Assembly (NCBI RefSeq): GCF_003418935.1
Contig: NZ_QVMT01000010.1
Coordinates: 62,001-126,000 of the forward strand
Length of the DNA stretch: 64,000 nt
Direction: 5' to 3'
From: Emticicia sp. C21
Lineage (GTDB): Bacteria > Bacteroidota > Bacteroidia > Cytophagales > Spirosomataceae
Shown here piece after piece: positions 11,929 through 50,127 of the stretch. Position 1 is the first letter of the stretch. Each line of letters starts with the position of its first letter. Both the position numbers and the translations under genes were made by a program. Under the pieces are notes generated by a model that worked only from the letters and a program-made list of their open reading frames with translations, ran no database searches and was not told where the DNA came from.

Positions 11929-12001
11929 GATTCCGTAGCTCAGCTGGTAGAGCAATACACTTTTAATGTATGGGTCCTGGGTTCGAGTCCCAGCGGGATC
12001 A
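11929..12001 (+). tRNA. tRNA-Lys (anticodon TTT), copy 1
   Basis: Acceptor arms GATTCCG and CGGGATC pair fully, with A as discriminator. The D arm contains GCTCAGCTGGTAGAGC, the anticodon stem is ATACA/TGTAT with loop CTTTTAA (anticodon TTT at 11962-11964), and the T arm is GGGTTCGAGTCCC. The CCA end is not encoded. First of three nearly identical copies. Confidence 0.97.
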
Positions 12002-12051
12002 CAAACGTATACAAACCTTTATTCTTCTTTTAGAGTAGATTATAATAAGAA

Positions 12052-12124
12052 GATTCCGTAGCTCAGTTGGTAGAGCAATACACTTTTAATGTATGGGTCC
12101 TGGGTTCGAGTCCCAGCGGGATCA
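12052..12124 (+). tRNA. tRNA-Lys (anticodon TTT), copy 2
   Basis: Same structure as the first copy. It differs by one base in the D loop (CAGTTGG instead of CAGCTGG), which does not disturb pairing. Confidence 0.97.
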
Positions 12125-12174
12125 CTAACGTATACAAACCTTTATTCTTCTTTTAGAGTAGATAATAATAAGAA

Positions 12175-12247
12175 GATTCCGTAGCTCAGCTGGTAGAGCA
12201 ATACACTTTTAATGTATGGGTCCTGGGTTCGAGTCCCAGCGGGATCA
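12175..12247 (+). tRNA. tRNA-Lys (anticodon TTT), copy 3
   Basis: Identical in sequence to the first copy. It is followed within three bases by a strong intrinsic terminator, so the three tRNAs form one transcript. Confidence 0.97.
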
Positions 12248-12250
12248 CAA

Positions 12251-34973: not shown

Positions 34974-35537
34974 TTTAAAATAATTTGGTTTAAGTGGTAC
35001 GATTACGCAAGTTAAGAAGATTTTTTAGATTAATAAGTAATAAGCTAAAGGAATGTAGATTAATTAAATACTAATTGCAATATACTAATATTTTTAGCAA
35101 TACTAACTAAAAATACTGATATTAATTAGTAAATTATACTAAAAATATTAGTTATTCATAACTATATTTATACTAACTATTGGTCGGGTAGGGGGTTAGT
35201 ATTAGTATTCTATTAAACTTGTCGTTGTTCTTTAATAATTATCTTTATTTTTATCTATTTATATGTCTAAATTAAGCATGCTGGACGGCTTTATAAAGCT
35301 TTTACTGGATAAGATTGCATTTTCATACTGTTGAGTCGTAGTATAGCATTTCAAGGGAGTGAGATAGTAATAATGGGAGTTTTTCTGGCTGTGATTTCTC
35401 AATATATTGTCTTACCTTTGTTTGCAAGCCAGAAACAATAATCCTATATTAACTTAAAATAAACTTAAAATTAAAGCATAAATCACTATCTATAAGTATT
35501 TTACAGTATATTTATTAATATTTTAATTAATCATAAA
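34974..35537. promoter_or_regulatory. Divergent gap-dapD intergenic region with clustered TACTAA motifs
   Basis: No gene is seen in this 564-base stretch. Between 35069 and 35207 the hexamer TACTAA occurs at 35069, 35083, 35101, 35137 and 35171, with the variant TACTGA at 35114 and its reverse complement TTAGTA at 35126, 35196 and 35202. Such density suggests a multi-site regulator, though the region is AT-rich. A -7 box TACCTTTG at 35413-35420 would give dapD a leader of about 110 bases. Confidence 0.5.
35413..35420 (+). promoter_or_regulatory. Candidate -7 box of dapD
   Basis: TACCTTTG matches TAnnTTTG exactly. No TTG is at the standard distance, so the upstream element is weak or absent. 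Confidence 0.45.
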
Positions 35538-36347
35538 ATGTCGTTAAAAACAACCATTGAAGCCGCGTGGGAAGATCGCTCATTAATCAATGACCCAACT
35601 ACTAAAACTGCAATTGAAGAAATAATCAATCAATTAAATGAGGGAATTATCCGTGTCTCTAATCCAAATGAGGATGGAACCTGGACTACTAATGATTGGG
35701 TGAAGAAAGCCATCATATTGTATTTCCCTTTACAACAAATGAGTGTACAGGAAGTAGGTATTTTTGAATACCACGATAAAATGAAATTGAAAACGGGATA
35801 TGACAAGATTGGTGTACGGGTAGTTCCTCCCGCGGTGGCCCGATATGGCTCTTACTTAGCTAAGGGAGTTATATTAATGCCTTCTTATGTAAATATAGGA
35901 GCTTATGTAGATTCAGGAACAATGGTAGATACATGGGCTACAGTAGGTAGCTGCGCGCAAATAGGCAAAGATGTGCATCTGAGCGGTGGTGTAGGCATTG
36001 GAGGCGTTTTAGAGCCTGCTCAGGCCTCTCCGGTTATCATTGAAGACGGAGCATTCATTGGCTCACGCTGTATCGTTGTAGAGGGCGCCAGAATCGGCAA
36101 AAGGGCCGTTCTGGGGGCAGGTGTAACCATTACCAGCAGCTCTAAAATAATCGATGTCAATACCGGTCAGGAATACATTGGTTACGTACCTGATAACTCT
36201 GTTGTTATCCCTGGCATGTTGAATAAAAAGTATCCTGCAGGAGAATTTGGTGTACCTTGTGCGCTTATTATTGGCCAACGTAAAGCAAGTACAGATCTTA
36301 AAACCTCCCTTAATGAGGCACTAAGAGAAAATAATGTCTCTGTATAA
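35538..36347 (+). CDS. dapD: 2,3,4,5-tetrahydropyridine-2,6-dicarboxylate N-succinyltransferase
   Basis: The 269-residue protein has an N-terminal helical part (to about 100) and a left-handed beta-helix of hexapeptide repeats (GVILMPSYVNIGAYVDSGTMVDTWATVGSCAQIGKDVHLSGGVGIGGV). It transfers succinyl from succinyl-CoA to tetrahydrodipicolinate in the succinylase branch of lysine and diaminopimelate synthesis, needed for peptidoglycan. The length is typical. It is followed by a terminator and then a long gene-free region. Confidence 0.96.
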   Translation: MSLKTTIEAAWEDRSLINDPTTKTAIEEIINQLNEGIIRVSNPNEDGTWTTNDWVKKAIILYFPLQQMSVQEVGIFEYHDKMKLKTGYDKIGVRVVPPAVARYGSYLAKGVILMPSYVNIGAYVDSGTMVDTWATVGSCAQIGKDVHLSGGVGIGGVLEPAQASPVIIEDGAFIGSRCIVVEGARIGKRAVLGAGVTITSSSKIIDVNTGQEYIGYVPDNSVVIPGMLNKKYPAGEFGVPCALIIGQRKASTDLKTSLNEALRENNVSV

Positions 36348-36418
36348 TCCTGGAGTGTTATCTCTAAGAAATTAATTTTAAATCAATAGAAATAAAATTA
36401 AATTTCAGGCAGTAGTAA

Positions 36419-36441
36419 TCTAAGAATTGCTACTGCTTTTT
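36419..36441 (+). terminator. Terminator after dapD
   Basis: GCAGTAGT (36419-36426) pairs with GCTACTGC (36429-36436 region) with one G-U pair around a short AT-rich loop, followed by TTTTTGTTTT. It lies about 70 bases after the dapD stop. Confidence 0.7.
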
Positions 36442-36981
36442 GTTTTATATAATCTGCCTGTAAATTAAAACCCTTGATACTCTTCTAAAAGCAATCAATT
36501 CTTCAAGTAAATTTTTTTCCTTTATCCATTTATTCTACTCTTATGATTAAATCTTATTTAAATTAATTATAATCTCTCTGCTCTAACCATATCTTATTAA
36601 TTCCATTTTATTTTAATCTTTTTGTGTACAGGTAATCCTGACATTAAATAATTAAAAATTTGTTAATGCGTTTTTTATTGTCAACAGCTGATACAATAAA
36701 ATTATTTAATTATTATTCCTTACATCAAAATCTGCCAATATTCTGACACAATAAATTTGACATTAAAAATATTTATCCTGTATAGATTAAATAAAATATA
36801 CTGTCATGTTGTCTTAGTTTCCTTATTGATAAAGCTTATATGGATGAGTTACTTATTTATTGAAAGAAAGGGGAGTAGCTTATATAGTGATTTGAATAAT
36901 TATTAGCTCCTAGTCCGGATTTGCTTTTAGCTCTTTTTCTATTATTTTTTATTCTCTGTTGGCTAAAACGCTATTTAAATA

Positions 36982-37021
36982 AAAAGAGCTATCCAGTTTT
37001 TAATAACTAAATAGCTCTTTT
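36982..37021. terminator. Inverted repeat, possible terminator
   Basis: AAAAGAGCTAT and ATAGCTCTTTT form an 11-bp stem with an 18-base AT-rich loop. No gene ends nearby, so it may be a remnant of lost genes. Confidence 0.4.
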
Positions 37022-37566
37022 GGCGGACTAAAATAAAAAAAGCCCTATCTAAAAAAAGAAAGGACTTTCTGACGATTGAATCCCAAATTGTCGGCATTTC
37101 TACCTACAAATTAAACCTTTACTTAAATTTATCTTTAATGAATTATCTTAGAAAGCACGTAAGCATGACACAAATTTAGTTTACAACCCTTAATAAACAA
37201 GCTCCTTTTGTAAATATTATTCTTTTTTTTCTTGACATTATTAAATATAGGTTGAATTTATCCTAATTAGCTTTTTTCTCATATGTGTGATTAATATTTA
37301 CTCCTGAGAAATTTCATTTAGAACGCTCCAGCCTATATACAGTTTATTCTATTCTTGTGGCTATTAACTGATAAAGCTTATAATGCGCTGAAAATAAGGC
37401 TATTAACATTTGTATTTTAATTGTAAACATCCGCTATTTACATTTACCAGAATATATTTACAAAAGTATTTGGTTTTCATTTCTAAATAATTTATATTTG
37501 TAATGTGATGTTTATAATTGTTAATTAACATTTAGAATTAGTGTTTACTTTTGTTTACATCGATTA

Positions 37567-37586
37567 TTTACAAATATAATTGTAAA
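37567..37586. promoter_or_regulatory. Palindromic operator before the XRE regulator gene
   Basis: TTTACAA, six bases and TTGTAAA make a perfect inverted repeat ending six bases before the start codon. Further TTTACA or TGTAAA copies lie upstream (near 37424, 37439, 37458, 37542, 37553). A site so close to the start is typical for autorepression. Confidence 0.55.
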
Positions 37587-37592
37587 CTGTTT

Positions 37593-38024
37593 ATGAAATT
37601 AAATGAAAAAATTCGTCGATTTATTAATGACAAAGATTTAACCTCAACCAAGTTCGCTGATGAGATTGGAGTGCCTCGCCCGAGCATTTCTCATATATTA
37701 TCAGACAGAAATAAGCCTAGTTTGGAGATTGTACAGAAAATTTACAAAAGATACCCAGAATTAGGCTTCGATTGGTTTTTGGAAGACGAAGAAAATGAAG
37801 CGCAATTAACTACTCAATTACCTAGTAATCAAGTAGTTACACAACAGAAAAGACCTATTTTTACTTCGCGAGAATCAAGCGAAAGAAAAATCACGGAAAA
37901 TAGTACACCACAGCCAAACCTCAATAGCACTATTTTACCAAATTTTGGTCATGGCAACGTTGCTCGTATCATTGTTGTGTATACAGATGGGAATACCCAG
38001 GTTTTTGAGTCAAGCAATGCCTGA
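37593..38024 (+). CDS. XRE-family helix-turn-helix regulator
   Basis: The ATG of MKLNEKIRRFINDKDLTS is used; the frame reaches 14 codons further to a TTG across the palindromic operator. The 143-residue protein has a Cro/CI-type helix-turn-helix in its first 65 residues (STKFADEIGVPRPSISHILSDRNKPSLEIVQKIYKRYPEL) and a polar, Ser/Thr/Gln/Asn-rich C-terminal half ending in a short hydrophobic strand ARIIVVYTDGNTQVFE. Similar lone XRE proteins are common in Cytophagales. It stands alone between two gene-free stretches; targets are unknown, but the palindrome before its start suggests self-control. Confidence 0.85.
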   Translation: MKLNEKIRRFINDKDLTSTKFADEIGVPRPSISHILSDRNKPSLEIVQKIYKRYPELGFDWFLEDEENEAQLTTQLPSNQVVTQQKRPIFTSRESSERKITENSTPQPNLNSTILPNFGHGNVARIIVVYTDGNTQVFESSNA

Positions 38025-40302
38025 CAATTTGTCATAGTTATTTTAAGGATTAGATTCTTTCCATTAGCTTATATTTTAATGTCATCAGGATTCGACTCAA
38101 TTTTATTCAGATGGCATTAAAAATTTTGAAAGTTGAGCCTCTTTACTTTTTAGAATTAAATTTTACAAACTAAAAATGAAGACAATAATTAAATTAGCTT
38201 ACAATAATTGAAATAGAAATTAAGTGTCCTAAGTTATCTCCGAGAGTTTAAAATGGTAATAAAAGTATCTAAATAGATATTTCTCGATGATAACTCTGAA
38301 TTTGTGAATGCTCATATGACGACTAATACAACCAGGGAATTGAGCATGAATAAATCAATACCTTATTTTTCTCTATTTGCTTACTTAGTCAACTTCATTA
38401 AGATGGGCATTAATTAGGTCGGAACTTTTAATAGACCTAATTACCTCCGGAGAATCTAGGTTTATGGCTTGAAGAAAATCCGGCTAGCTATCAAAGATGC
38501 AAATAAAGTTAATGAAGACAAGGCATAGCTTAAGACAGTAACTGAAGTAAATGTTAGGCGTTCATAGAAATAGTTTTCTTACTGATTATTCCGGTATCTG
38601 AATGGTTTAATACAGTTCTATTATAAATGTATGTAGCCCTCCATTGAGACCATTTAAAAGGGGACATTCATTGCTGGAATTATGACTTTACTAATGGTGG
38701 TTAAAAGCTGTAATAGCAAGCAGAAATTGAAACTTTAGAACCAGCCAAATTTGTAGAAAGGCTCAATACTTTCAATAGAACCGTTTAGTAAAAAGTGTTA
38801 AAAAATTAAAGACTATAGGTTTTAAGAAATCACATATCTGTGTTGTGGAGTAAATATAAATCTAATGTGGAAAGAAAGCTTGGTGAGTAATGTTTAGCTT
38901 TAGAAATTTATCAAAGACTTTGACATTTCATTTAATCATTGGTTTGGATTTGGTATGCAGAGTTAAGAGTAGGTCTTAATAATTTGAAGCCAGAGTTTGT
39001 TTCGGGTGAATATAAAGACAGTTAGTATTAATATCATCTCTATCATATACATCAAGTATTAGGCTTACTAACTTGATTAATATTCATTAGAAGAATCTAG
39101 TGGTCTTAGTGCTTTAAAAATTGGTTAGCGCGAATTAGCATAAATTGTATATAGGCAAATTTGTACCAAAGAGATAGAATGATATTTTCAATTTACGTTA
39201 ACTTGTTTGAATCGAAAATCTAACTCTTTCAACTCAGGATAATTTAAATGGTTTTTGTCAATACTTAAAATATGCAGCAGAGTAGTAGGGGGTATTTTTA
39301 AATTTATTGGTCGTTTAAAATAAAACGCAAACCATTCTGACAATTTTTATCTCAGTATAAATTTCAAAATTTGCAGTTTTAAAAATACCAACACAGAAAA
39401 TTGGCGACCAGTATTCTTAAAGTTTTACAAATTATTGAAAGACTTAATCAACTATAATTCATTTTCTATTTGATTTTTATCTTCCCGGCTTTTAATAAAT
39501 TGAATCATTTTTCAGATTCATAAATCTTTGAATTTTCACCTTCAAAAATTAGCCTATAAACTACAACTAGCTTTACTTGAAAGACCCTCAAAATGAAGCC
39601 ATTTTTAAGCCATCAAACGTTATCTCTAAGAGCATTTTGATGCATAAGTAGGGTAGTTGCTCATTTCATCACCTAAAGCTCCTAAAAAAGGCCTTTTTAC
39701 GAATCCACAATTATAACTATACTGCAAATACATACTGATAATAACTAAAAAAACTATATCAATTATAATATTCGTAAATATATTTCTTATGTTTATTATA
39801 ATACTATTGAATATAATCATAAATTATAATACGTATGTTTATTACAATTTGAATTATTAAGTTAATAATTATTATTTAAAATATACTTATAATACTTTTA
39901 TATATAATTGATTATTTATTAAGTAATGTTCATTATTATCTAAATATACATTTATTATATACTTTACATTTTAAATAAATTGTTCTTAATAAATAAACTA
40001 TTCTTATATATCTATTTATACTTTATTATACATTAGTACTTTTATTATAGATTTTACATTTTAAATTATCAGTAATTAAAATACTTACTATAAAATCTTT
40101 ATAAAAGGTGCTTTTTTTATGAATGATAATTATTTATATATACTATATGATTCATAAATTTCAGTATTATTATATGATTATATACTATAAAACATTCTAT
40201 ACTTATCGTAAAATTATTATTTTCAATAAAACTTATATTTTTAATATTGTTACTACAGATGATTTGTTCTATATTGCTGCACAATATTATCCTTATATCG
40301 AT
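38025..40302. other. Long AT-rich gene-free region before parA
   Basis: No intact gene is visible in about 2.3 kb. From 38140 to 39450 the base composition is somewhat more mixed and short stretches translate plausibly (for example ELRVGLNNLKPEFVSGEYKDS at about 38960-39021), but stops interrupt every frame; this may be a fossil gene that I cannot name. From 39600 to 40300 the sequence is extremely AT-rich and contains direct repeats, like a replication or partition site. Confidence 0.55.
39951..40066. repeat. Pair of 26-bp direct repeats upstream of parA
   Basis: The stretches at 39951-39976 and 40041-40066 agree at 24 of 26 positions and are spaced by exactly 90 bases. Each has TTTATTATA followed by TTTACATTTTAAAT. 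A partial copy, TTTATTATACATT, starts at 40022. They sit 240-350 bases before parA, where type Ib partition systems carry their centromere-like site. Confidence 0.6.
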
Positions 40303-41067
40303 ATGATTATTAGTGTAGTAAACAACAAAGGGGGAGTGGGTAAAACTACATCTACCCAAAATCTTGGTGCTGCCTTTAAGAAGTTTGCCAATGCCCAGGT
40401 GCTCTTTATTGACCTTGATGGCCAGGCAAGTCTTACCAGGTGTTTTGGTGTACAGGAATCTCAGGTTGCAAAGAACCATGTAGGGAATTACCTGAGTGGT
40501 GAACTGCCATTTGATTCTATTGTAATCAATACACCTATAGGGGATTTATTGCCCAGTGCCGCTGAACTGAACACGAAGGAAGATGTGATAAAAGCATCTC
40601 CGGTATTTCCCTTTAATCTAAAACTACTATTAGATAAAGTGAAAAAGAATTATGATTACATTATGATTGATTGTCCGCCGACTCTTTCAGGAATGACCCG
40701 AGTTGCGCTTATTGCATGTGATATTTATCTGGTACCGCTCCAGGCGGAATATTTAAGCTATGAAGGTCTCAGAAACTTCCTGAATTATTCTTCAGAGCTA
40801 CAACTCATTAGTCCGCAAACAAGACTCGGTGGTGTATTTGCTACACGCTATAATCCGAGAATCAACAAAAAACTTAGCAACGATATTATAGAAGCTACCA
40901 AACAACAATTGGGAAGTTCATTTTTTACTACAACTATCCGGGACAATATTGCTATATCTGAAGCTCAGGCTAATGGAAAGGATATTTTTTCTTATTCCCC
41001 AGAAAGTAATGGTGCGATGGATTATTATCAATTAACTAAAGAGATTCTCAGTAGTATTAATAACTAA
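40303..41067 (+). CDS. parA: ParA-family partition ATPase
   Basis: The protein is taken to start at MIISVVNNKGGVGKTT, because Walker-type ParA proteins begin there; the 60 codons upstream are Tyr/Ile-rich low-complexity sequence. The 254 residues contain the deviant Walker A KGGVGKTT (9-16), Walker A' VLFIDLDGQAS and Walker B DYIMIDCPPTLSG. It has no N-terminal DNA-binding domain, as in chromosomal and type Ib plasmid ParA. Such ATPases position DNA or protein cargo over the nucleoid. The next gene encodes a small DNA-binding-type partner, and the pair lies about 540 bases from dif. Confidence 0.93.
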   Translation: MIISVVNNKGGVGKTTSTQNLGAAFKKFANAQVLFIDLDGQASLTRCFGVQESQVAKNHVGNYLSGELPFDSIVINTPIGDLLPSAAELNTKEDVIKASPVFPFNLKLLLDKVKKNYDYIMIDCPPTLSGMTRVALIACDIYLVPLQAEYLSYEGLRNFLNYSSELQLISPQTRLGGVFATRYNPRINKKLSNDIIEATKQQLGSSFFTTTIRDNIAISEAQANGKDIFSYSPESNGAMDYYQLTKEILSSINN

Positions 41068-41153: not shown

Positions 41154-41483
41154 ATGGCAAAAAATAAAAATTTCACCTTTGAAAGTTTAGTTCCTACAAA
41201 GAGTTCTGAACAGACAACTCCGGCTACAGCTAATCAACCGGCAGCTATAGTTGCTTTACAAGATAATGGACCATCAACGAAAGTAACATTTGATTGTCCG
41301 AACGATTTAGTTGAAACTATGAAAGATTACGGCTACTGGGAAGGTATGTCTCAAAAAGATATTATTATTGAAGCCCTGGGCGTATTCTTTGAAGATAAGA
41401 AAATAAAAGAAAGGCCTGAGAAAGTAAAAATGCGTAAAAAAGTTGGCCGTAAACCAAAAGCTTTAAAAGCATTTCTCAATTAA
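41154..41483 (+). CDS. Small basic ribbon-helix-helix-like protein, probable ParA partner
   Basis: The 109-residue protein has a disordered N-terminal 45 residues (Thr, Pro, Ala, Gln), then TKVTFDCPNDLVETMKDYGY with SQKDIIIEALGVFFEDK, a strand-helix-helix pattern like the ribbon-helix-helix fold, and a basic tail (KVKMRKKVGRKPKALKAF) with an AT-hook-like GRKPK. It follows parA by 86 bases on the same strand. In type Ib systems the second gene is such a small DNA-binding protein (ParG type) that binds the centromere and activates ParA with its flexible N-terminus. The fold is inferred by eye. Confidence 0.6.
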   Translation: MAKNKNFTFESLVPTKSSEQTTPATANQPAAIVALQDNGPSTKVTFDCPNDLVETMKDYGYWEGMSQKDIIIEALGVFFEDKKIKERPEKVKMRKKVGRKPKALKAFLN

Positions 41484-41546: not shown

Positions 41547-41562
41547 TGTTCCACGTGGATTC
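41547..41562. promoter_or_regulatory. parS-like site
   Basis: TGTTCCACGTGGATTC agrees with the common ParB site TGTTCCACGTGGAACA at 13 of 16 positions; the inner TCCACGTGGA is a perfect palindrome. It lies 64 bases after the small DNA-binding gene and 44 bases before dif. No ParB gene is in the window. Confidence 0.45.
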
Positions 41563-41605: not shown

Positions 41606-41633
41606 ATGTTACATAATTTATATTATGTTAAAT
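41606..41633 (+). other. dif: dif site (XerCD recombination site of the replication terminus)
   Basis: The 28 bases compare with Escherichia coli dif as follows. The XerC arm is ATGTTACATAA (inner five bases identical), the centre is TTTATA (one difference from TGTATA), and the XerD arm is TTATGTTAAAT (11 of 11 identical). In total 22 positions agree. XerC and XerD resolve chromosome dimers here. Gene orientation changes at this point from mainly plus to mainly minus, as expected at a terminus. Confidence 0.85.
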
Positions 41634-41766
41634 AGAAATTATGTAACTACCCTATGAGTAAGTTAATTATTTGTATTTGTTAAGTTTTGGGTATATTATT
41701 TACCTCTCAAATAATATACATTAATATAAATATTTAAAGGTCAGGCTTAAAATTTACAGGCATTAT

Positions 41767-41877: not shown

Positions 41878-42987
41878 TTATTTGCGTTTTGCGCATTGTT
41901 CAAGTACTGAAGTTAAGCTGGTCATGCTAGTTGTCAACTCTTCCTCCTGAGGTTTTCCTTCTTTTTCTCTTGCGGCCTTACAAATATCGAAGTATGGTTT
42001 TGCTTCAGCAAATTTAGCACAAGCCTTATCTTCTACAGCCTTACCATTCTTTTGATATTCTTTCATATCCATTTTATCTACTTCTTTTTTAATTTCAACT
42101 GCCTGGTTAAAATAATATACACCTAAGTTGAAGTTACAGTCGTAATTATTCGGATCAATCGCCAATACTTTTTTATACCATACTAAAGCTTCTTCTTTCT
42201 TACCCCCATTATCATAAAGAATGGCTAGGTTAAGTAGATTATTTACATTGTTTGGGTCAGCATCTATCAATTTTTTCAACTCTGCAATTGCCTCATCAGA
42301 ATTACCGCTTGATAATTGAATATTCACTAATGAACCTTTCAAATCTTTATCATTAGGATTCGCTGAGATACCCTTTTTTAAAACCTCTACTGCTTTAGTA
42401 TTATTTTTCTCGGCTTTGTATATCTCAGATAAGCTATAGAATACAGCCGGGTCTTTACCTCCCTGATCAATGAACTTTGCGAAATAAACTTTAGCCGCTT
42501 CGTTATCTTTTGCTTGTTGACCTACAATACCTGAGTATAGCGCTGCTGTGGTATCTTTAGGACTTACTTCAGAAGCTAATCTGAATAATCTAAGGGCATT
42601 TGGGAAATTTTTAGCGTTATAGAATCCTGCGCCTTGTTGCATTAATGCTGAATAAATTTTCTGGCTGGTTAGAGCTGCTTCAATCTCTTTAGCACCTTTT
42701 CCCCCAGCCTCAACTTCAAGTGCTTTTTTATAAGTATTATATGCTTTTTCAGATGCCATTGAGTCTTTACCGCAATTAATCGCCATATCCTCATAAGCAG
42801 CAGCCAGTTTAACCCAGGTTGAAGACTTTGCACCTTTTTTAGCATCCTGACTTGCTTTTTCGCCTTTTGTTATTTCATCAGCCGCTGACTTACATTGTGC
42901 ATCACGAAGCTGATTATCAAGTCCTGCTTGTGCAAATACGCCTGCCGTAACCATTGATAAGACAGACACAAAAATGGTTTTTTTCAT
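41878..42987 (-). CDS. Periplasmic tetratricopeptide-repeat protein
   Basis: The 369-residue protein has a signal peptide (FVSVLSMVTAGVFAQ) and about six TPR units between residues 100 and 320 (for example NFPNALRLFRLASEVSPKD, KNNTKAVEVLKKGISANPND, KKEEALVWYKKVLAIDPNN). The stretch before the repeats is rich in Lys and Ala. No catalytic motif is present. It is the first gene right of dif and is transcribed towards it. A role as an envelope scaffold is likely but not shown. Confidence 0.8.
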   Translation of the reverse strand: MKKTIFVSVLSMVTAGVFAQAGLDNQLRDAQCKSAADEITKGEKASQDAKKGAKSSTWVKLAAAYEDMAINCGKDSMASEKAYNTYKKALEVEAGGKGAKEIEAALTSQKIYSALMQQGAGFYNAKNFPNALRLFRLASEVSPKDTTAALYSGIVGQQAKDNEAAKVYFAKFIDQGGKDPAVFYSLSEIYKAEKNNTKAVEVLKKGISANPNDKDLKGSLVNIQLSSGNSDEAIAELKKLIDADPNNVNNLLNLAILYDNGGKKEEALVWYKKVLAIDPNNYDCNFNLGVYYFNQAVEIKKEVDKMDMKEYQKNGKAVEDKACAKFAEAKPYFDICKAAREKEGKPQEEELTTSMTSLTSVLEQCAKRK

Positions 42988-43105
42988 ATTTTGAGTTGAT
43001 TTTTTAAAATACTTAAACGTTTAGGGTTAGACAATATTATTTCCCGAAAAATATATATTTTCGGGAAATTAACAAAGTATTAACATAAAAACTCGACATA
43101 CTCCC

Positions 43106-45745
43106 CTACTCCACTGTCGATTCCGCTTCGGTTGATGCACCTGTACTCTCTCCTCCCTCACCGGCTTCCTCCTCTTCTTCATCGCGGATAATACGTGTAA
43201 CTGAAGCAATATCATCTGTTTCGTTCAAGCGGATAAGTCTTACACCTTGTGTATTACGGCCCATTACTCTTAAATCAGCTATCTTGATACGAATGGCGAT
43301 ACCATTTTTGGTGATAATCATTAAATCATCATCATCAGTTACTTCCTTAATCGCTACCAAAGTACCTGTTTTATCGGTAATATTTAAAGTTTTAACTCCT
43401 TTAGCACCTCTTGAAGTAATACGGTAATCATCTATATCTGAACGTTTTCCATAGCCTTTTTCTGATACCACTAATAATTGCGTATCGGCTCTTGAAACAC
43501 AAACCATTCCGATAACTTTGTCGTCCTCTTCGAGACTGATACCTCTTACGCCTGTGGCTGTGCGTCCCATTGGGCGTGTACCAGATTCGTGGAAACGAAC
43601 AACTTTACCGTTTTTGGCGGCTATTACTATATTATTATCTCCGTTGGTAAGCGCTACGTCTAAGAGATTATCTCCTTCATTAATATTAATAGCAATAATA
43701 CCTCCCTGACGTGGACGAGAATAGGCTTCCAGAAGTGTTTTCTTAACTGTACCGTCTTCTGTGCACATAACTATATAATTATTATTGATATAGTCTTCGT
43801 CAGTAAGTGTAGTTACGTTCAGAACGGCCTGAATTTTATCATCAGACTCAATATTAATCAGGTTTTGAATAGCTCTTCCTTTGGCAGTTTTCGACCCCTC
43901 CGGTATTTCAAATACCCTTAACCAGAACAATTTACCTTTCTTCGTGAAGAATAATAAATAATTATGATTAGTTGCCGCAAACAAATGCTCGGTGTAGTCT
44001 TCGTCTTTGGTTTTAACACCTCTTGAACCTGTACCCCCTCTACCTTGTGTTCTATATTCCTGTAGGGCTGTACGTTTGATATAGCCCTGATGCGAAATAG
44101 TAACCAGCATTTCATCATCCGGAATCATATCTTCTATACTGAATTCACCTGCCGCCATTTCAATTTTAGAACGTCTTTCATCACCGTAGCGAGATTTTAA
44201 CTCTGCTAATTCTTCTTTGATGATGGTACGTTTTCTTTCTTCAGAAGCTAAAATGGCGCGTAAGTCTTCAATCAGATTTTTGATTTCTTCAAACTCAGCA
44301 TTTATCTTATCTCTTTCTAATCCTACTAAACGTTGCAAACGCATATCCAAGATAGCTTTTGCCTGTATTTCGCTAAGGATATTTCCGCTTTCTGTATCTG
44401 CATTGAAAGTATCAACAATTTGCAAACGTATCAGACCTTCAGACAGGAATTTTTGCTTCTGCTCAGCAGTCATAAAATCACCTTGCATTAAACCATTTCT
44501 GGCTTCATCGGCATCTCTTGACCTGCGGATGAGTGTAATAACTGCATCGATATAATCTAGTGCAATTAAAAGACCTATTAAGATATGTGCTCTTTTCTCA
44601 GCTTCTTTTAAATCAAACTGTGTTCGTCTGGTAATAATCTCCAGACGATGCTCTACATAGTAGCGAATCATATCTTTCAGATTCAATGTAACCGGGCGCC
44701 CTTTTACAAGAGCCACGTTATTGATACTGAAAGATGATTGAAGCTGCGTGTATTTATAGAGATTGTTCAATACAACATTTGGTACGGCATCTTTACGTAG
44801 ATCATATACGATACGCATACCCTCTCTGTCCGACTCATCCCTGATGTCTGAAATTCCTTCAATTTTCTTTTCATTAATCAACTGAGCAGTTTTCTCAATC
44901 ATCATAGCCTTATTAACCATATAAGGAATCTCAGTCACTACAATCTGGTCTTTACCGGTCTTTGAGACTTCAAAATTAGCCACAGAGCGTAGCACAATAC
45001 GTCCACGTCCTGTTTCAAAAGCAGATTTTACACCACTGTATCCATATATAATCGCTCCTGTCGGGAAGTCAGGAGCTTTGATATAATGCATTAATTCTTC
45101 AACCGTAATATCATTATTATCAATATAAGAAGTGATGCCATCAACTACTTCTGATAAATTATGAGGGGCCATATTAGTAGCCATACCTACTGCAATACCT
45201 GCCGACCCGTTTAATAGTAAATTAGGGATTTTACCAGGCATCACTGATGGTTCCTCAAGGGAATCATCGAAGTTAGGCTGAAAATCAACAGTTTCTTTAT
45301 TGATATCGGCTAACAGTTCTTCTGCTATTCGTTTTAAACGTGCCTCGGTATAACGCATCGCTGCAGGTGAATCACCATCAACTGAACCGAAGTTACCCTG
45401 CCCGTCTACCAACGTATAACGCAAAGACCAATCCTGCGCCATACGAACCATCGTATCATATACTGATGAATCTCCATGAGGGTGATATTTACCAAGCACC
45501 TCTCCTACTATACGTGCTGATTTTTTATAAGGGCGATTGTGATATACGCCAAGTTCTGCCATACCGTACAATACACGGCGGTGAACGGGTTTCAGACCAT
45601 CTCTAACATCTGGCAAAGCACGTGAAATGATAACAGACATTGAATAATCAATGTATGCTCCACGCATTTCGTCTTCGATGTTGATTGGGATAATTGTGCC
45701 GTTGTTGGAAGATTCTGGGATTAGATTTTCTGTTTCCTCAGCCAT
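43106..45745 (-). CDS. gyrA: DNA gyrase subunit A
   Basis: The 879-residue protein has the breakage-reunion domain with catalytic Tyr132 ([10 protein letters not shown]) and the quinolone-resistance region [10 protein letters not shown], where Ser93 and Asp97 equal the drug-sensitive Ser83 and Asp87 of Escherichia coli. The C-terminal beta-pinwheel carries the GyrA box as QGRGGTG, which argues for gyrase and against ParC. The tail after about residue 850 is acidic ([11 protein letters not shown]). With GyrB it introduces negative supercoils. It is transcribed towards dif. Confidence 0.96.
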
Positions 45746-49664: not shown

Positions 49665-49721
49665 GTAAATTACCCTTTCGGGATATATGTCTCTCTGTAA
49701 AAATATTATATAGTAAAGAAG

Positions 49722-50127
49722 AAGTAAGCCTATAAGCCGAATTCTGTCTTCAATAATTACCACAAGGATACCTATTAAAGTCTTATCATTTATCTGGAAT
49801 AGTAGTTGCCTATTATTTCTATCAACCTACCCTCCGACTCAGACGAGCAGCCTTTTAAACAACCTTTCGATTGCTATTCGTCGGTTTATTTGGTCTTTCA
49901 GTTCATGAGGTTTACCATGCCTCGTTTGTCACCAAACAAGCGGTAGGCTCTTACTCTACCTTTTCACCCTTACCCGAAGGCGGTATATTTTCTGTGGCAC
50001 TGGCTGTAGATAATCAATCGCTTGGTTATCCCCTACCCGTTAGGTAGCATGATGCTCTGTACTGTTCGGACTTTCCTCAACTTCATAGGGTTGCCCCTCA
50101 AAGCAGCGATAAGACGACTTACTTTTT
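49722..50127 (-). ncRNA. rnpB: RNase P RNA (class A)
   Basis: On the minus strand the conserved blocks are all present: GAGGAAAGTCCGAACA near the 5' side, AGGGTGAAAAGGTAGAGTAA in the middle and GAAGACAGAATTCGGCTTAT near the 3' end. The outermost P1 helix pairs AAGTAAG (50124-50118) with CTTACTT (49728-49722). The RNA, about 400 bases, is the catalytic part of RNase P, which trims tRNA 5' ends. A perfect promoter lies directly upstream and a terminator downstream. Confidence 0.95.

Follow-up and report, generated by a model that had tools for sequence, protein, structure and literature searches.

The dif site of Emticicia sp. C21 and the parS-like word, polar octamers and partition genes that accompany it

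A 28-base word resembling the dif site of Escherichia coli is found in the draft genome of Emticicia sp. C21, and it raises the question of whether it marks the replication terminus of this chromosome and what the conserved elements beside it could be for. The stretch analysed, hereafter the window, comprises 64,000 nucleotides (C2:62001-126000) of a genome of 6,641,932 bases in 33 unordered contigs, which is labelled G000; its features are collected in Table 1. In comparison to E. coli dif, the word agrees at 21 of 28 positions on recount and not at 22 as originally predicted. The XerD arm (TTATGTTAAAT) is identical at 11/11 positions and the centre agrees at 5/6, both as claimed, whereas only 5/11 positions of the XerC arm are alike, the arms and the centre being separated by eye. 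A 24-base core is single in the window with up to three mismatches and a 25-base core, at the same tolerance, occurs once in the whole 6.64-Mb genome, as expected from the prediction; both the 28-bp layout of arm, centre and arm and the one copy per chromosome are those of a dif site.

Table 1. Features of the window, with positions counted from its first base
Feature	Position	Strand	Remarks
RGTAGGGG octamer, towards dif	35187..35194	+	KOPS-like
dapD, left neighbour	35538..36347	+	NCBIfam PRK11830 above cut-off; left of dif on plus in 71/80 genomes
XRE-type helix-turn-helix gene	37593..38024	+	Pfam HTH_3 5.9e-8; left of dif on plus in 72/80 genomes
RGTAGGGG octamer, towards dif	39284..39291	+	KOPS-like
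ParA-type ATPase, 254 aa from ATG at 40303	40303..41067 (longest ORF 40123-41067)	+	Pfam AAA_31 1.8e-40, CbiA 2.9e-18
p109, small ParA partner, 109 aa, GRKPK tail	41154..41483	+	conserved beside ParA
parS-like terminus word GTTCCACGTGGAT	41548..41560	+	only window match at <=1 mismatch
dif site	41606..41633	+	XerC arm 41606-41616, centre 41617-41622, XerD arm 41623-41633
Inverted XerC-arm copy (extra arm), just right of dif	41636..41647	-	12/12 complementary
TPR-repeat protein gene, right neighbour	41878..42987	-	right of dif on minus in 78/80 genomes
RGTAGGGG octamer, towards dif	43103..43110	-	KOPS-like
gyrA, right neighbour	43106..45745	-	NCBIfam gyrA equivalog above cut-off
RGTAGGGG octamer, towards dif	50030..50037	-	KOPS-like; inside RNase P RNA

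The site recurs in relatives, as had been anticipated: 48 of 58 have a dif match with up to three mismatches (own genome counted), and another pattern at the same tolerance retrieves it in 351 of the 390 genomes of the order. A looser consensus with up to one mismatch finds it in 80 of 81 genomes of the family, a grouping that here joins Emticicia and Dyadobacter, assigned by NCBI to Leadbetterellaceae and Spirosomataceae, respectively. A chance resemblance, to which the AT composition of the dif region might lend itself, can be practically dismissed in view of this recurrence, mostly with the same neighbours, and of the absence of matches to the 24-base core in 100 shuffles. In particular, gyrA is located to the right of dif on the minus strand in 77/80 genomes, the fetched sequence being too short in the other three, and the complete set of dapD, XRE gene, TPR gene and gyrA occupies its usual positions in 68/80; this conserved gene neighbourhood indicates an old chromosomal dif and not a recent insertion. 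Kono et al. 2011 (PMC3025954) likewise predicted dif in 19/19 single-chromosome genomes of Bacteroidetes.

Alternatively, a phage, plasmid or IMEX that uses dif could have integrated here, the 28-mer being its attachment site, and the neighbouring ParA and p109 would then be the partition genes of that element. A ParA with a small partner gene, which adjoins dif here, is a typical plasmid arrangement, use of dif is known from Microviridae proviruses of Bacteroidetes, and the locus has both a 3.7-kb AT-rich and gene-poor stretch to the left of dif and an inverted extra XerC arm. In contrast, the two flanking dif copies of a mobile element are not found, the genome holding no second one, and genomes devoid of ParA/p109 still have dif next to its chromosomal neighbours; moreover, the pair lies beside dif in all nine same-genus genomes with dif, the Dyadobacter pair being in a different setting. 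The lack of a second dif and the neighbourhood kept without ParA/p109 led to the rejection of this reading, which is very improbable. A second dif-like match is present in 5/81 family genomes. Such sites were noted on other contigs at G009:C30:37225 (L050), G007:C5:80848 and G015:C18:323434, that of G009 being 5.4 kb away from a distant ParA homologue (34% identity), and they are perhaps secondary replicons or integrated elements.

The extra inverted XerC arm is complete (12/12) in 3 of 81 regions (G000, G001 and G006; L043, L046), the next best reaching 9. It is separated from the XerD arm by 2 bp in the window genome and by 3 bp in G001 and G006, and it tracks the one-base difference of the XerC arm between G000 and the other two; it could form a hairpin or offer a third recombinase site. 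The locus shares with E. coli dif/XerCD the 28-bp layout, the identical XerD arm, the single copy, the skew switch and genes of the xerD and ftsK-gamma types, while it differs in the XerC arm and in this additional arm outside the site. The dif site as such is ordinary, and it fixes the terminus of the genome.

That dif marks the replication terminus, as originally predicted, is borne out by its single copy, the nearby skew maximum, the conserved site and neighbourhood, and the polar octamers described below; the site is, with high confidence, the chromosomal dif in a zone of converging replication forks. The forks may meet exactly at dif; according to Kono et al. 2011 (PMC3025954), however, they terminate close to dif and not at the site itself. 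The GC-skew check attached to the prediction was run on the own contig of 251,298 bases, where the cumulative maximum (C2:101310) lies 2.3 kb from the start of the dif core (C2:103609); in the window, the cumulative skew peaks in the 40-42 kb bin. The skew of this contig is weak and uneven, the 10-kb bins at 40001 and 50001 being negative and that at 150001 positive. In the single-contig genome of the same genus, G002, dif is found at 2.707 of 5.177 Mb (52%), and among 20 spaced 20-kb samples the skew is positive in 8/11 before dif (one zero, two negative) and negative in 7/9 after it, which leaves 2/11 and 2/9 samples of the wrong sign, while the expected sign is found in 7/7 samples of the single-contig genome G014.

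The genes are distributed on the strands as described in the original prediction, although its counts (24 plus and 14 minus on the left, 19 minus and 3 plus on the right) are slightly off: a hand count of ORFs of at least 90 aa, leaving out those contained in a longer ORF or overlapped by it over most of their length, gives 19 plus and 12 minus to the left of dif and 18 minus and 0 plus to the right. The proposed search for xerC, xerD and ftsK recovered two of the three above cut-offs, an XerD-family gene at C1:766785 (curated family cut-off) and an FtsK with gamma domain at C28:281028; a second close XerC/D-like recombinase at C4:42169 falls below the XerD-family cut-off and is presumably XerC. 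Pumping by FtsK and the resolution of dimers by XerCD at dif are established knowledge. In this genome FtsK would load on polar octamers, probably RGTAGGGG, and pump DNA to dif, where recombination by XerC and XerD would resolve chromosome dimers.

The KOPS of E. coli is GGGNAGGG. In the window, 4/4 copies of RGTAGGGG point to dif, their number being not above chance (shuffle mean 1.47; 6/100 shuffles reach 4), and the polarity alone, not the number, is informative. Around dif in 80 genomes all 98 copies are dif-pointing (47 on the left on plus, 51 on the right on minus, 0 + 0 in the opposite sense); 44 of them are outside ORFs of at least 120 aa and 8 run against the strand of the ORF. On contig C2 the polarity is 9/9 and in the G002 samples it is 15 vs 2. 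Together with TAGGAGGG (50 to 0), AGTAGGGG and GGTAGGGG (49 to 0 each) lead 8,619 octamers (40 or more dif-pointing copies). Same-composition permutations also lean to dif (median 0.74 for 165 permutations with at least 20 copies), and since G-rich octamers in general do so, the bias is partly compositional; in addition, the octamers were chosen with the same data, own contig and G002 included, so that these counts are not an independent test.

RGTAGGGG behaves as a polar octamer converging on dif and, judging from its sequence distribution, is probably the KOPS recognised by FtsK, which makes it a concrete candidate for Bacteroidota. The likeness to the E. coli FtsK KOPS consists in a G-rich polar octamer converging on dif, GGGTAGGG itself being found here 46 vs 2; the exceptionless octamers are, in contrast, RGTAGGGG and TAGGAGGG, and their recognition by FtsK is putative. 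The excerpts of the literature on KOPS, FtsK and Bacteroidetes that were searched contain no KOPS octamer for Bacteroidota. As regards single copies, the rightmost octamer of the window lies within an RNase P RNA of class A (49717-50125, minus strand). The heptamer GGTGCGA is dif-pointing in 141 copies vs 6 in the G002 samples (L083-L102), unlike in other sets, and this excess is perhaps due to a repeat in the G002 genome.

A second element beside dif is a parS-like word, GTTYCACGTGRAT. A chance match to it in one window is not rare (16/100 shuffles). Its distribution was followed in the 80 genomes over up to about 20 kb around dif, with at most 12 kb on the left and 8 kb on the right of each. 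The word is located to the left of dif and on the dif strand in 57/80 genomes, with a single orientation throughout, and no copy was found on the other strand or to the right of dif (858,880 bp scanned on the left and 602,917 bp on the right). Among the 23/80 genomes that lack it are the same-genus G002 and the g13 genomes, all four of them. The distance from word to dif ranges from 51 to 6,520 bp and is at most 110 bp in 17 genomes; where a comparison is possible (55 cases), the word is always to the right of the XRE gene. In an unbiased count of 10-mers in the interval between the XRE gene and dif of 72 genomes, the word comes out on top (GTTCCACGTG in 45); each of the 13 10-mers shared most widely is a fragment of it, in some cases extended by a neighbouring base. 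One copy exactly of GTTYCACGTGRA is present in 58/80 intervals and none in 22, whereas the reversed GTTYCACGTGRA, used as a control, has 0 copies in the same intervals; near dif, 57 of the 58 copies of GTTYCACGTGRA are followed by T and one by G.

The 13 positions of the word, two of them as Y/R, are kept across 21 genera (own count) with largely diverged flanks; most flanking positions are weakly conserved, with A at -3 (0.86) and T at -1 (0.77) standing out most. Since the word is inherited together with its neighbourhood, its orientation is not independent evidence and the 57 copies are not independent events. At 14 dif loci of other families of the order the word was not seen within up to 1.5 kb per side, a span too short to exclude it. 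A related 12-mer, GTTYCACGTGGA, occurs 0 to 5 times per genome, over both strands together, in the 81 family genomes. A reading based on DnaA boxes, with words like TTATCCACA around dif in Emticicia and a few others, was discarded because it is not general across genera. The idea that the word is the centromere of ParA/p109 was weakened by the many genomes with the word and without the pair and by 37 Dyadobacter loci with the pair and without GTTYCACGTGRA. Another short word, CAATTCTCAG, was observed 35-224 bp to the left of dif in 8/80 genomes (G002, G003, G006, G007, G009, G010, G035 and G284), of which 7/8 are Emticicia or have the same ParA/p109 pair.

The parS consensus is a 16-bp palindrome, TGTTYCACGTGRAACA. 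The copies bearing the terminus word agree with it at 12 to 14 of 16 positions; the full palindrome is thus not found, being broken on the dif side, and the word lies beside dif instead of near the origin, while its C/T and G/A variability is that of parS. Twenty regions were chosen among the matches away from dif, and in these the base after GTTYCACGTGRA is A in 43/47 strand-wise matches, T in 2 (G145 and G415) and G in 2; these two T copies show that RAT also occurs outside the terminus. In G000 and G002, the two genomes whose genes were read at such copies, parS-like copies are located just upstream of mnmG, and two mnmG-side copies of G002, 8.7 kb from the contig end, match the parS consensus at 16/16. 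Matches roughly opposite dif are present in G014, G383 and G145 but not in G031, and the copies away from dif would be origin-side. The terminus copy resembles these family copies in GTTYCACGTGRA with the same Y/R alternatives and differs from them in being single, beside dif and of the RAT form, the others being mostly RAA.

According to a review (PMC7022226), the half-parS GTTYCAC is bound by ParB of several species, whereas no binding to half-parS is seen for nine ParBs, those of B. subtilis and V. cholerae among them. As in the half-parS sites of Pseudomonas aeruginosa ParB, the heptamer GTTCCAC/GTTTCAC is intact in the word; the difference is that in P. aeruginosa hundreds of sites are distributed genome-wide (PMC7022226), and one longer word lies by dif here. 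Five word-bearing genomes outside the genus (G014, G018, G026, G145 and G011) have one ParB match only, so that any ParB reading the word in them would have to be this one. These genomes (5/5 of those searched) give no support to a second, Noc-like ParB as the reader, and the idea was set aside. Second ParB genes were observed in G383, about 99 kb from dif, and at G000:C2:58070-58603, where a gene of the ParB family, also found in G001, lies 45 kb to the left of dif and 3.4 kb to the left of the window.

The word may be, as a tentative first choice that falls somewhat short of an even chance, a weak form of parS to which the chromosomal ParB binds and which marks the terminus. Its main rival, to be considered rather unlikely, is an operator read by the neighbouring XRE protein or by another transcription factor and not by ParB. 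The XRE gene is indeed to the left of dif in 72/80 genomes, and in 25/55 measurable cases the word lies 44-700 bp past the matched end of this gene; yet the XRE gene stays where the word is missing (e.g., G022, G031, G415 and G284), the eight same-genus carriers have the word 3.0-6.3 kb from the XRE gene and at most 0.6 kb from dif, and the word varies between C and T and between G and A just as do the parS copies located away from dif. It is distinctly less probable that an ancestral parS copy is decaying here and no longer serves a function: one half of the word is imperfect and 23/80 genomes lack it, but under decay T would not be retained at position 13 of 57/58 copies, nor does decay accord with 13 positions kept in 21 genera despite largely diverged flanks. 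The titles and abstract openings of the searched literature on parS and dif gave no account of a parS site beside dif.

The third element is the pair of genes to the left of the word. The ParA ORF has the deviant Walker A motif KGGVGKTT of ParA-family ATPases and matches Soj, with the solved segregation protein 1wcv at 2.4e-28. Searches of Pfam and NCBIfam at E 0.001 gave nothing for its partner p109; in a profile comparison it weakly matches the CopG-family ribbon-helix-helix chain 9kkd (E 0.18), while a structure model of low confidence (mean pLDDT 57) contains helices only, with no strand assigned. p109 is possibly a ribbon-helix-helix protein. In the type Ib partition, ParA acts with a ribbon-helix-helix partner; the locus is similar in that a small gene, possibly with a segment of this type, comes after ParA, and different in being chromosomal, at dif in Emticicia, and in that some relatives also encode a putative membrane protein sharing the N-terminal motif.

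p109 is present in 11/58 relatives, own genome included, namely in 9/11 same-genus genomes and in G017 and G035; all 11 genes start within about 1.6 kb to the left of the dif match, on the same strand and with ParA adjoining, so that the pair accompanies dif in Emticicia and two related genera. All same-genus genomes with a dif match (9/9) have ParA/p109 beside it, and G004 and G005 have neither match. A third gene in G003, G035 and G017 encodes a protein with one apparent membrane segment, assigned by eye, whose N-terminus has an F-x-F-x-x-L/F pattern in common with p109; a short, remnant-like match is found in G010. The two proteins would be partners binding one ParA, one on DNA and the other on the membrane. 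Somewhat more doubtfully than the ParB reading of the word, the adjacent ParA and p109 might in Emticicia position or tether the terminus region, in some relatives with the membrane protein.

The pair is also found elsewhere. A profile search of the order with p109 recovered 40/390 genomes, of which 27 belong to the family and 13, with weaker matches, do not. Among 46 named p109 loci, 9 have dif in the fetched flank (up to 6 kb) and 37 do not; these 37 are all titled Dyadobacter and all retain ParA adjoining p109, in a different setting with ordinary-looking genes around in the 4 loci listed. ParA/p109 as an obligate companion of dif was excluded on account of these 37/46 loci. The pair and dif share a contig in G106, G170 and G190 but are 149-166 kb apart. 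As a separate observation, the 3.7 kb between dapD and ParA (36350-40120) are AT-rich, with little coding except the XRE gene and a GC content of 0.27-0.31 (2-kb bins, 36-40 kb).

What is new at this locus is the parS-like word kept by dif, the KOPS candidate, and the cluster of ParA/p109, with or without the putative membrane protein, in Emticicia and two relatives. According to PMC7333895, parS lies near the origin in most cases; a parS variant whose position at dif is conserved over 21 genera would point to ParB as a marker of the terminus, too, in these bacteria. It is conceivable, if on balance unlikely, that the word is a second, weakened centromere mark at the far end of the chromosome: the same ParB, possibly with its ParA/SMC partners, would read the parS variant by dif, a single partition system would serve both origin and terminus, and in Emticicia a dedicated ParA and p109, with the membrane protein in relatives, would have been added. 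Farther from dif, the window also contains three tandem tRNA-Lys (ttt) genes at 11929-12248.
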